From positions 1-26,191 of the IMG/VR virus record IMGVR_UViG_3300025168_000574: a DNA stretch of 26,191 bases; one strand, written 5' to 3'. Every line of letters starts with the position of its first letter. Position 1 is the stretch's first letter. Positions 2 through 5,604 of the stretch are shown here, in pieces. The stretch comes from a virus. Position numbers and translations under genes: made by a program. The notes below the pieces were generated by a model. It had not been told where the DNA came from. It searched no databases and saw only the letters and a list, made by a program, of their open reading frames with translations.

Positions 2-208
2 TATTGGTACACAGGACATATACATAATAAACAAGCTATGGAGTTCTCTGGTTGTATGTGGGAATCGTTTCGTACTCTTGCTGGTTCTGATGCTTGGCAC
101 TCTGGAGCTGGATATAGATCTGGAAAAGATTTAAGTTGCGTGTTACTTCATAAAGACTTCGGAGAGATAGGAAGAAACACAGCGTCTCTCAAAATGGTAA
201 GAAGTTAA
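2..208 (+). CDS. Metallophosphoesterase-like protein, C-terminal end (partial)
   Basis: An open frame enters from the left edge and stops with TAA at 206-208, giving 68 residues. It begins YWYTGHIHNK. The GHIH matches the last metal-binding GHxH motif of calcineurin-like phosphoesterases. The following FRTLAGSDAWHSGAGYRSGK is the kind of tail I associate with phage-encoded members of this family, sometimes annotated as oxidoreductase or phosphatase. The N-terminal catalytic motifs lie outside the window. The gene ends directly against the first arm repeat of the attachment site (209), so it is probably the last gene of the phage's rightward late operon, with the sequence continuing around a circular or terminally redundant genome. 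Family assignment is from recognition of motifs only. A host gene downstream of ssrA is the alternative. Confidence 0.6.
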   Translation, partial: YWYTGHIHNKQAMEFSGCMWESFRTLAGSDAWHSGAGYRSGKDLSCVLLHKDFGEIGRNTASLKMVRS

Positions 209-232
209 ATGTTGCATTAATGTTGCATTAAC
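209..232 (+). repeat. Left arm-type repeat pair
   Basis: Two tandem copies of ATGTTGCATTA at 209-219 and 220-230, followed by AC. The block is identical to 371-394. It begins one base after the stop codon of the metallophosphoesterase-like gene. Probable integrase (or integrase and excisionase) arm-binding site. Confidence 0.8.
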
Positions 233-263
233 CAGCCCAAAATAGCCATATTCAGACATATAA

Positions 264-274
264 TAATGCAACAT
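264..274 (-). repeat. Single inverted arm-type repeat
   Basis: TAATGCAACAT is the exact reverse complement of the 11-mer arm unit and lies between the left arm pair and the core. A lone inverted copy could be a regulatory arm site, as in other phage attachment sites with several arm sites of differing orientation. Confidence 0.65.
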
Positions 275-308
275 CCAATTTAAGAATGCTTTCGTAGCAA
301 GGGTTACG

Positions 309-345
309 TGGTGGAGATGGGGGGAATTGAACCCTCGTCTGTTGC
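309..345 (-). ncRNA. ssrA: 3' end of tmRNA gene (ssrA fragment), integration core
   Basis: Read on the minus strand, this ends GGGTTCAATTCCCCCC then ATCTCCACCA. It has a T-loop TTCAATT, an acceptor 3' strand CATCTCC, discriminator A and an encoded CCA. A U at position 70 (numbered as in tRNA) fits the G3-U70 alanine identity pair of tmRNA, and the GACG before the T-stem resembles the E. coli ssrA 3' end. Only this end is present; the 5' part and tag frame are not in the window. The T-stem reads GAGGG against CCCCC, which leaves one A-C mismatch. tRNA-Ala is the main alternative and fits less well. Confidence 0.7.
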
Positions 346-370
346 TTTATTAGTAGTGTCTGTAGAGGGA

Positions 371-394
371 ATGTTGCATTAATGTTGCATTAAC
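371..394 (+). repeat. Right arm-type repeat pair
   Basis: Two tandem copies of ATGTTGCATTA at 371-381 and 382-392, followed by AC, identical to 209-232. It ends three bases before the stop of the integrase gene. The spacing to the core is shorter on this side than on the left. Confidence 0.8.
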
Positions 395-397
395 ACT

Positions 398-1564
398 CTA
401 TTTTGATGCTATTTTTAGCTCAGTTTTTGGATTTATAAGGCTTGCAAATTTATTGCCAGCTTCTGGAGCATCTTCATCAATAAATCTAGCATAGGTTCTA
501 TAAGTAAAACCAGCATCTTTATGGCCCATTTGTTTTGACACCCAGCCTATATTCTCACCAGAGGTTATAGCAAGAGAAGCAAACGTATGTCTAGTTTGAT
601 ATGGATAACGATACCTCACTTCTGCTTTTCTTAATATAGGAGTCCAGCCAGTTTTACGAATAGCTTGATCACCCTTCCAAGGTTTATTAAGTCTTGGGTT
701 ATGAAATATTTCTTTGTTCTGTAGATAAGTATATTGCTTTTGGTCTTTTAAAATGGTAATAACATCTTCTGTTAATTTAACCCATCTATAACTTGTTGAT
801 GTTTTTGGAAGCCCAACTATTTTTGCAGCTTGAGTCATTGCTTTATTTACATGCAATCTATTATTAGACCAATCAATATCATTCCATGTAAGAGCTATGT
901 ACTCACTGATTCTTAGACCAGTAAAAAAAGCAAGAGTAAATAAATTATGTATTTGACCATCACAAGAATTTAATATTAATCTTATTTCTTTTGTAGAGCA
1001 TGGGTCTATAATTTCATTCTTATTACTTACAAGTTTTCCTTTAAATTTTTTACCATATAAAGGATTAACTGCAATAAGCTCATCATCAACTGCTTCATCC
1101 AACGCTTGATTTAATAAAGTAAGTTTGTTTGATAAAGTCTTAGTTGTATTAGATTGTTTCTTTATCCATTTTTTTATATCTAACCATTTAAGCTCTGCTA
1201 TTGGATATTTTCCAAAAGTTGGTATTAGCTGATTGTATATTATGTTGGTATTTTTTTCTAAAGAAGAATCAGCGTAATTATGTTTATGTCCTTCATACCA
1301 TTCAGTAAGATATTGTTTGACTTTAATTGCTGATGTAGGATTAAATAAATATCTTTGTTTGTCTTTAGGAAATGTTGTAGCGTAATCAAAAGTGCCATCT
1401 TCTATAGCGTCTAAAACCCTAGCTCTAAATTTTGTTGCTGCTTTTAAGTTAGTTTCAGTGGGTTCACCCCATATTCTTGGTCTACATTGTGTTCCTTGAT
1501 AGGTGAATGTGATGACGATGCTGTTAGCACTTCCTTTACGAACTCCTGTCCTTTTTTTACCCAT
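398..1564 (-). CDS. int: Tyrosine-family site-specific integrase
   Basis: A 388-residue tyrosine recombinase that would integrate and excise the phage at the neighbouring att site. Residues 5-70 look like the N-terminal arm-DNA-binding domain (DUF3596 type, GVRKGSANSI start and FDYATTFP end), about 80-175 like the SAM-like core-binding domain, and about 185-365 like the catalytic domain. Visible active-site residues are Arg218 (TGLRISE), Lys254 (LPKTS), Arg325 (YQTRHTFAS), His348 (QMGHKD) and the nucleophile Tyr358 (RTYARF). The first His of the usual HxxR box is Tyr322, which I recall as normal for this phage subfamily. Last gene of the minus-strand operon. Its first 121 bases overlap the end of the excisionase-like gene in another frame. 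Start chosen because the arm domain begins immediately after it. Confidence 0.95.
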   Translation of the reverse strand: MGKKRTGVRKGSANSIVITFTYQGTQCRPRIWGEPTETNLKAATKFRARVLDAIEDGTFDYATTFPKDKQRYLFNPTSAIKVKQYLTEWYEGHKHNYADSSLEKNTNIIYNQLIPTFGKYPIAELKWLDIKKWIKKQSNTTKTLSNKLTLLNQALDEAVDDELIAVNPLYGKKFKGKLVSNKNEIIDPCSTKEIRLILNSCDGQIHNLFTLAFFTGLRISEYIALTWNDIDWSNNRLHVNKAMTQAAKIVGLPKTSTSYRWVKLTEDVITILKDQKQYTYLQNKEIFHNPRLNKPWKGDQAIRKTGWTPILRKAEVRYRYPYQTRHTFASLAITSGENIGWVSKQMGHKDAGFTYRTYARFIDEDAPEAGNKFASLINPKTELKIASK

Positions 1565-4379: not shown

Positions 4380-4739
4380 CTATGAATAGTTATTTTTTAT
4401 ATTAGTTATTTGATCAGAAATATTATAAGGGTATCCAGATGCACATGCTTCAACTTGTTCAGCAATGCTTTGTATATCTTGATCTATTTCTGTAGTCATA
4501 TCTATTAGTGTTTGTTTATCAACCCATGATGGAATGTTTTGAGCTATTTCCATTATGTCACTTGCTAAATAAACAATTTTAGATATTTCGTGAGCTCTGT
4601 TTTTTATCCATTCAATTAAAACTTCTAAAGCGTCAACAACGTGATCTTTAAATTGTTCTAATTGTTTTTCTGCAAAAACAGAATAATTGCTGGCTATTGC
4701 AACATCGTAATGCAACGATGATTTTATATTATCTAACAT
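4380..4739 (-). CDS. Hypothetical protein, 119 residues, lone gene beside repressor
   Basis: Not recognised. Starts MLDNIKSSLHYDVAIASNYS; almost entirely helical and acidic with regular heptad-like spacing (LEQFKDHVVDALEVLIEWIK, then ASDIMEIAQNIPSWVDKQTL), so a coiled-coil or helical-bundle protein is likely. GGAG precedes the ATG. The gene is set apart from both neighbours: a terminator follows, and about 450 bases without a clear gene precede it on the repressor side and strand. That makes it a candidate lysogen-expressed accessory (moron) gene. A Fur-box-like site and structured leader lie upstream. Any link to iron control is inference. Confidence 0.7.
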   Translation of the reverse strand: MLDNIKSSLHYDVAIASNYSVFAEKQLEQFKDHVVDALEVLIEWIKNRAHEISKIVYLASDIMEIAQNIPSWVDKQTLIDMTTEIDQDIQSIAEQVEACASGYPYNISDQITNIKNNYS

Positions 4740-4832
4740 ATTTACTCCATTTGTCCTTTTATACTTGTACGTATGTCTTACTCATGTTGAGCATCCAGCT
4801 ATATATCGTAGCCGAAACCAAGTTGTACTTAT

Positions 4833-5116
4833 AGATGTTACAGCAAGTTAAAAAACTTCTGTAGTACCATCTTGTATAGTTATGGCCTGTGCCAAATAAG
4901 AGTTCACTTGAAGGAGCTGACTCAATTCCCTGTTAGTTTGTTGAGTATGTAGGTTTCCACTACTTGCTCATGGGTACTTCCCATGTTGTTTAAGGGCAAC
5001 ACCCTTTCAACTGCAAGTAGTGGCATAGAGCCATTCTGTATTTAATTTGTTTATCGCTGCTTTCAGTATCAGTCGATAGAGCTCGCTTGTTTTAGGTGTC
5101 TAGCTCCTCTGCACCT
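4833..5116 (-). ncRNA. Structured leader or non-coding RNA (candidate)
   Basis: The 448 bases between 4740 and 5187 hold no convincing gene but many inverted repeats. TACAG-c-AAGTT pairs with AACTTCTGTA (4839-4849 with 4854-4863), extended by AGATG/CATCT (4833-4837, 4868-4872). TGGC pairs with GCCA (4883-4894) and ACTCAA with TTGAGT (4920-4946). A three-way junction lies at 4957-5023. Further out, TATCG pairs with CGATA (5052-5078) and AGGTG with CACCT (5094-5116). Transcribed leftward from the candidate promoter at 5119-5147, it would be a 5' leader of about 370 bases for the 119-residue gene, or a free RNA. Base composition looks less AT-rich than the neighbours. No known RNA family recognised. 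Strand is inferred from the promoter; the folds work on either. Confidence 0.5.
4957..5023. repeat. Compact three-way-junction inverted repeat
   Basis: Outer arms CCACTACTTGC (4957-4967) and GCAAGTAGTGG (5013-5023) are perfectly complementary over 11 bp. They enclose two hairpins: CATGGG/CCCATG (4969-4974, 4980-4985; 5-base loop) and AAGGG/CCCTT (4992-4996, 5002-5006; 5-base loop), the latter extended by TTG/CAA (4986-4988, 5008-5010). Junction linkers are 1, 0 and 2 bases. Such density of perfect pairing in 67 bases is unlikely to be accidental. Confidence 0.7.
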
Positions 5117-5118
5117 TA

Positions 5119-5147
5119 ATCATTTTGTAAATGATAATCATTATCAA
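5119..5147 (-). promoter_or_regulatory. Fur-box-like operator inside a candidate promoter
   Basis: GTAAATGATAATCATTATC at 5127-5145 matches the classical 19-base Fur consensus GATAATGATAATCATTATC at 17 positions (my comparison by eye). On the minus strand it lies between a -35-like TTGATA (5147-5142) and a -10-like AATGAT (5124-5119) with a 17-base spacer, the normal arrangement for Fur repression. Transcription would run into the structured leader and the 119-residue gene. The -10 is weak (4 of 6). A phage-encoded regulator binding an AT-rich palindrome is the alternative. Confidence 0.5.
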
Positions 5148-5187
5148 TACTACCTTGTTTTAAGTAGCAATGTTAATTATTTTAAAA

Positions 5188-5604
5188 TTAATTACTATGT
5201 CCTGAAAAAATTTTATTAACTTTACCTATAGTCGTAGCACCTTCAGGCAAATATAAACGATCATTCTTTTTAATTTTGACTAGATAAAAATCACTTTTAA
5301 GGTCTGGAGTAACTGGTGTATCAACTGCAACTAATGAAATATGCTGCTGTATTCTTACCACATTTGGTTCTAGTTCACCATCAAGAAGATATTGAACAGA
5401 AGTGCCAAGAGCATCTGCTAATTCTTTTATGTATCTAGGAACTTTAATTCTTCCTGATTCACAAAATTGAATGTTTTGATATGTAACACCAGCTAGTCCA
5501 GCTAACTCTGATTGTGTAAGGCCCTTATCTTTTCTTAATAATTTAACTCTCTCTCCAAGAGTTTTAACATTATCTATTACTACTTTAGTCACATCACTTG
5601 ACAT
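5188..5604 (-). CDS. XRE-family repressor, short form without peptidase domain
   Basis: 138 residues. A typical XRE/Cro-CI helix-turn-helix occupies about residues 15-75 (LGERVKLLRKDKGLTQSELA, then ESGRIKVPRYIKELADALGT followed by SVQYLLDG). It would act as the lysogeny repressor. The remaining 60 residues are too short for the S24 autocleavage domain of lambda CI-type repressors, and no Ala-Gly or Cys-Gly cleavage site with Ser and Lys catalytic residues is visible. The last part (DFYLVKIKKNDRLYLPEGAT, then IGKVNKIF) looks like the final strands of such a domain, as if the middle were lost. It is divergent from the Cro-like gene. A Shine-Dalgarno GGAG supports the start. Confidence 0.85.
   Translation of the reverse strand: MSSDVTKVVIDNVKTLGERVKLLRKDKGLTQSELAGLAGVTYQNIQFCESGRIKVPRYIKELADALGTSVQYLLDGELEPNVVRIQQHISLVAVDTPVTPDLKSDFYLVKIKKNDRLYLPEGATTIGKVNKIFSGHSN

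Follow-up and report, generated by a model that had tools for sequence, protein, structure and literature searches.

In a marine temperate phage, a compact inverted-repeat structure lies between two genes of the leftward operon, and a preliminary description had read it as a three-way junction. This raises the potential that the junction is part of a functional RNA. Alternatively, it could act as DNA, or it could be an inverted repeat without any function. We analyzed the window, that is, the whole 26,191-nt stretch of virus record IMGVR_UViG_3300025168_000574, alongside related phages and genomes of a gammaproteobacterial family.

The window carries an integrase, an excisionase, a Sak annealing protein, an HTH repressor, a Cro-like gene, RusA, a terminase and a head-tail connector. 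The features that frame the locus are as follows:

5188..5604, minus strand: upstream gene, HTH phage repressor (Pfam HTH_31/HTH_3; PHROG transcriptional regulators)
4380..4739, minus strand: downstream gene, helical protein of ~119 aa, at the equivalent position in all related phages
309-341, minus strand: putative att site, tmRNA 3' end CAGACGAGGGTTCAATTCCCCCCATCTCCACCA, beside the integrase

The junction sits in the 448-nt gap (4740-5187) between the repressor and the 119-aa gene, where the longest minus-strand ORF encodes at most 34 aa. The minus-strand order is repressor, RNA, small helical protein, and the arrangement of repressor, gap and small gene is kept in L002, L003, L005, L009, L010, L012, L024, L027 and L105/L106. 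Pfam and PHROG searches placed the 119-aa protein in no convincing family, and its predicted structure, which is of low confidence (pLDDT 63), gave no fold match. Since a tmRNA 3' end lies beside the integrase, ssrA is the probable integration target of the phage; 39 of 83 host-family genomes have a tmRNA 3' end that differs from the putative att site by no more than 2-3 mismatches. Repeated TTAATGCAACATTAATGCAACATT-type motifs on both sides of this site (window 200-410) are likely integrase arm sites.

Fold and stability of the junction

The junction and a small neighboring hairpin comprise the following elements:

4957..5023, minus strand: three-way junction, outer stem 5023-5013/4967-4957
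5004-4994, minus strand: junction stem P2, around GGGTGTTGCCC
4985-4980/4974-4969, minus strand: junction stem P3, CATGGG/CCCATG
5021..5033, minus strand: H3, small hairpin TGGC/GCCA, with weak covariation

We found that the perfect 11-bp outer stem of the preliminary description holds, with arms 4957-4967 (CCACTACTTGC) and 5013-5023 fully complementary. The two enclosed hairpins had been described as perfect, with 5-base loops. This is true of CATGGG/CCCATG, which closes a 5-nt loop, but the other arm is imperfect: on the plus strand, it consists of an AAGGG/CCCTT hairpin of 5 bp that sits on a 3-bp helix, with an internal loop. In the minimum free energy (MFE) structure, the linkers are 1, 2 and 1 bases rather than the 1, 0 and 2 given before. 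In an alternative pairing, the P2 loop TGTTG can pair with CAACA (4988-4984).

The 67-nt MFE is -31.1 kcal/mol on the plus strand (z -5.75; matched by 0 of 200 shuffles) and -33.2 kcal/mol on the minus strand (z -6.1), and no dinucleotide shuffle reaches the MFE of either strand. Among 17,418 segments of 67 nt from both strands, the junction has the lowest MFE; it beats every other such fold in the window by more than 8 kcal/mol, with the next unrelated site at -24.8. Perfect 11-bp inverted repeats with a short spacer occur 3 times in the real window and 0-5 times per shuffled window. The repeat is therefore unremarkable alone, and it is the two enclosed hairpins that make the junction exceptional.

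The relevant strand is the minus strand, which matches the flanking genes and the homologues. Hairpin H3 has counterparts at the same place in L105 (GGCT/AGCC) and L063 (TGGC/GCCA). The 3' side of this hairpin shares bases with the start of the outer stem, so H3 and the junction compete.

A larger RNA in phages and host chromosomes

Within a structured RNA of ~290 nt (5117-4825, minus strand), the junction forms the second domain; the remaining elements of this RNA are these:

5079..5116, minus strand: PK1, H-type pseudoknot, with S1 AGGTG/CACCT (5116-5112 with 5098-5094)
5106-5102 with 5083-5079, minus strand: S2 of PK1, GAGCT/AGCTC
5093-5084, minus strand: A-rich loop of PK1, AAAACAAGCG
5053..5077, minus strand: H2, strongly conserved bulged hairpin, ATCG-ACTGATA-CTG-AAAG-CAG-CGAT
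5036..5052, minus strand: linker AAACAAATTAAATACAG (consensus ANAAAUUAAUACAG), conserved in every phage and host copy
4825..4872, minus strand: PK-B, pseudoknot, with S1 AGATG/CATCT (4872-4868/4837-4833)
4867-4863/4829-4825, minus strand: S2 of PK-B, GTACT/AGTAC

The core is present at seven distinct phage loci, and gap-versus-gap BLASTN gave 82% identity over 5077-5006. In an alignment of the core from six phages (the window, L009, L010, L012, L024 and L027), both sides of PK1 S2 are changed in 4 of 5 pairs, giving the versions GAGCT/AGCTC, GCATC/GATGC, GCATT/AATGC and GCTCT/AGGGC; slid registers come nowhere near this covariation. The outer stem of H2 becomes CTCG/CGAG, CACG/CGTG or AACG/CGTT in relatives, and the host copies L063, L065 and L066 build the PK1 fold from wholly different letters (AGTGAG/CTCACT; CCTAT/ATAGG). 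Across 15 sequences, 7 of the 12 pairs of the S1 and H2 stems are changed on both sides, a count that leans towards structure because the alignment was fitted to it, and none of 500 shuffles reaches the covariation score. PK-B is 100% paired in the window, L105, L024, L077 and L109, with compensatory changes in 2 of 5 S2 pairs; S2 reads GGTCTT/AAGACC in the hosts L077 and L109. PK1, H2 and PK-B all show the compensatory helix changes across homologues that are expected of a conserved structured RNA.

We searched for host copies with a covariance model, R1, built from six phage loci. The 83 genomes searched belong to the family of a MAG that bears L028, the one related prophage found by a GTDB repressor search; this prophage is without the RNA, yet it pointed to the host family, whose genomes measure 0.7-2.8 Mb. 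R1 matched 8 of the 83 genomes (best E 2.3e-22) and a refined model matched 10. The refined model also matched L105, which was left out of the building of both models, at 3e-17. Among the best 11 candidates per genome in 369 genomes of the class, it gave no match, which argues only weakly that the RNA is absent there.

Seven of the first eight genomes carry the RNA at one chromosomal site, between a ~94-aa gene and a gene with a weak Pfam MASE1 match (in G041, this MASE1-like gene sits on a second contig, L109). Reading the upstream names from the sequences, we take the order at this site to be trpA, accD, ispH, a sugar-kinase-like gene, the ~94-aa gene and the RNA. In G039, the eighth genome, the upstream genes are those of this site, and the contig ends soon past the RNA. 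In the syntenic-site copies, a gene on the same strand ends shortly before the RNA. A second copy in G020 carries a terminator-like hairpin and precedes a ugpB-like ABC transporter operon (L064 9410-9601, minus strand). At the syntenic site of other species (L079, L080, L081 and L084), we observed a different intergenic sequence; those of L079-L081 are alike (TTGCTAAGTTTGCAAGG...AAAAAACTAAGCACGAG) and are perhaps another RNA module.

Phage and host leaders can be close, with 92.6% identity over 108 nt between L027 and L062, and 77% over 332 nt between host L077 and phage L105, although the genes behind the latter two are unrelated. We conclude that phages and hosts have exchanged the element. 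Comparative sequence evidence provides good support for a structured RNA family common to phages and to the chromosomes of one gammaproteobacterial family.

The preliminary description had called for a search for sequence-diverged copies of the same fold. The string AGGGTGTTGCCCTNAAACAA recurs in one further phage type (L105/L106) and in host genomes G027 (L077) and G041 (L078, L109), each time behind the same RNA core. In the window, L105, L077 and L078, ACTTGCAG provides the 5' strand of the outer stem that encloses P2 and P3; all four fold into a three-way junction in which one stem covaries. P2 (AGGG/CCCT) is invariant among them, while P3 is CATGGG/CCCATG in the window versus CTAGG/CCTAG in the other three. 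The outer stem shifts its register, pairing as CCACTACTTGC/GCAAGTAGTGG in the window, TGCAGTTT/AAACTGCA in L105 and TGCAG/CTGCA in the hosts. Given this re-registered outer stem and the covarying P3, the topology and one stem are supported, and the window alone has the exact 11-bp stem. In L077 and L078, the homologous stretches fold no more stably than shuffles, and other relatives carry different modules at the junction position. The earlier suggestion of a ligand-binding or ribozyme-like junction therefore stands in part: four homologous junctions within a larger RNA with compensatory changes support a functional RNA junction, but no Rfam ribozyme matches it.

Possible functions and comparison with known systems

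The RNA is probably a gene-control element common to phages and hosts. More specifically, we lean towards a new cis-regulatory intercistronic leader that gates the next gene in response to a ligand or an RNA-binding protein. Such a leader would act from the stretch of leftward mRNA that separates the repressor gene from the small gene. Its last pseudoknot would hide or expose the Shine-Dalgarno sequence and so gate expression of the downstream gene, which in some members a terminator-like hairpin may gate as well. The trigger could be a ligand or an RNA-binding protein recognizing the PK1-H2 core, with the three-way junction serving as a spacer or a tertiary-contact domain.

This reading draws on a constant polarity, location ahead of ORFs, structure next to the Shine-Dalgarno sequence, occasional terminators and unrelated downstream genes. 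In nearly every copy, the RNA lies just 5' of an ORF on the same strand. In L105, L024, L077 and L109, GGAG or GGGG follows the end of PK-B at ~10 nt, and in L002, L082 and L090 a hairpin is followed by AAAAAGCG, with TAGGAG immediately after it and ahead of the start codon; in all of these, PK-B or a related pseudoknot-like motif adjoins GGAG, GGGG or AGGAG. Differing downstream genes (phage helical protein, MASE1-like, ugpB-like) are what would be expected of a reusable leader. However, these genes have no evident common pathway and thus suggest no ligand, the modules 3' of the core are highly variable, and many relatives have lost the locus. In addition, ~85 nt separate PK-B from the start codon in the window, a greater distance than in relatives, and we found no terminator on the window's minus strand.

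The related motif is itself a recurrent feature, consisting of a hairpin whose 3' strand is preceded by ACGAC, followed by AAAAAGCG and often by TAGGAG as well. It occurs singly or in several copies at the following sites, which suggests a modular set of pseudoknots:

L002, 5450-5500: AAAAAGCG motif
L003, 5221-5400: AAAAAGCG motif
L005, 2855-2970: AAAAAGCG motif
L076, L082 and L090: AAAAAGCG motif

Because the RNA usually follows a same-strand gene, a small RNA derived from a 3'UTR also comes into question. A trans-acting RNA of this kind, made from its own promoter between the genes or processed from the upstream mRNA and ending at a T-run hairpin, would fit the terminator-like hairpins 3' of the core in L010, L027 and L064, the conserved single-stranded segments and the differing downstream genes. 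Yet L075, L089 and L088 have no terminator and their next ORF starts ~35-80 nt from the core, there is no conserved promoter, and several host copies leave only ~15-45 nt between PK1 and the stop codon of the upstream gene. We therefore consider a small RNA unlikely.

We judge it less likely still that the RNA is the partner of a neighboring protein, in a type III toxin-antitoxin or other RNA-protein immunity module exchanged between phage and host. The exchange itself, the variable and often lost locus, and the order of pseudoknots, terminator-like hairpin and ORF in some members, which resembles that of ToxIN loci (PMC8860590), would suit such a module. Against it, no tandem near-identical pseudoknot repeats occur at 4700-5250, downstream proteins match no ToxN/CptN/TenpN-type toxin in Pfam or PADLOC and no PADLOC defense family, defense-system models gave nothing convincing, and one copy precedes the ugpB-like transporter operon.

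A chance or lineage-specific inverted repeat is very unlikely to account for the junction: such repeats do arise by chance at this spacing, the exact outer stem is confined to the window and the L077 and L078 stretches are no stabler than shuffles, but the combined fold is by far the strongest in the window, and the homologues with invariant P2 and covarying P3 also close into a junction. That the locus acts as DNA, as the preliminary description had allowed, is highly improbable, whether as a cruciform, an operator or a replication signal. Perfect inverted repeats can extrude, and a Fur-box-like palindrome lies nearby at 5133-5145, but compensatory pairs in the neighboring domains, G-U pairs and a polarity fixed to the genes in all homologues are hallmarks of RNA. 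This palindrome (AATGATAATCATTATC, window 5130-5145) lies just 5' of the RNA, and a similar one (TAATGATAATGATTATTA) is equally placed in L024; the earlier hint of iron finds no support apart from this palindrome.

Returning to the leader, a bolder and rather doubtful extension is that multi-pseudoknot RNAs of a new regulatory class are traded between temperate phages and their small-genome marine hosts, and that through the phage copy the prophage senses or titrates the signal or RNA-binding factor by which the host's MASE1-like membrane gene is controlled, linking lysogeny to host state. Regardless, a covariation-supported RNA family that is absent from Rfam occupies both a phage repressor-led operon and a fixed host chromosomal site. 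If this RNA senses something, it would connect lysogeny control to the physiology of the host in uncultured marine bacteria in a way that can be tested, and it might lead to a new ligand or RNA-binding protein.

Rfam covariance models at curated thresholds gave no match in the window, and relaxed searches of the window and its relatives gave only chance-level, eukaryotic or unrelated matches at the RNA. A BLASTN search with the intergenic region returned nothing from phage and plasmid records, and literature searches found no description of the RNA. Readings as attC-like, tmRNA-like or cruciform elements were dropped because the matching features are absent.

The purine riboswitch and the hammerhead ribozyme share the three-way junction shape, but neither is supported: the preliminary description could not match the junction to their cores, and we found no match at curated or relaxed thresholds to the Rfam purine aptamer model or to the hammerhead models and their catalytic core. 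SAM-V has an H-type pseudoknot near the start codon (PMC2704228), and SAM-II/SAM-V and the preQ1 classes resemble our RNA in this and in the A-rich loop after stem 1, whereas the RNA here is larger and multi-domain, has no Rfam match and has no shared downstream metabolic pathway. Type III toxin-antitoxin RNAs (ToxI) resemble some members in having H-type pseudoknots, then a terminator-like hairpin and an ORF; here, however, there are no tandem repeats, and the downstream proteins are not ToxN-like. Among ribosomal-protein leaders, the rpsB motif combines a three-stem junction with a pseudoknot in a proteobacterial leader (PMC2704228), as our RNA does, but here there is no ribosomal protein gene and no Rfam match, and the RNA belongs to one gammaproteobacterial family and its phages. 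A structured leader RNA is thus a known kind of element, while the RNA family itself appears to be new.
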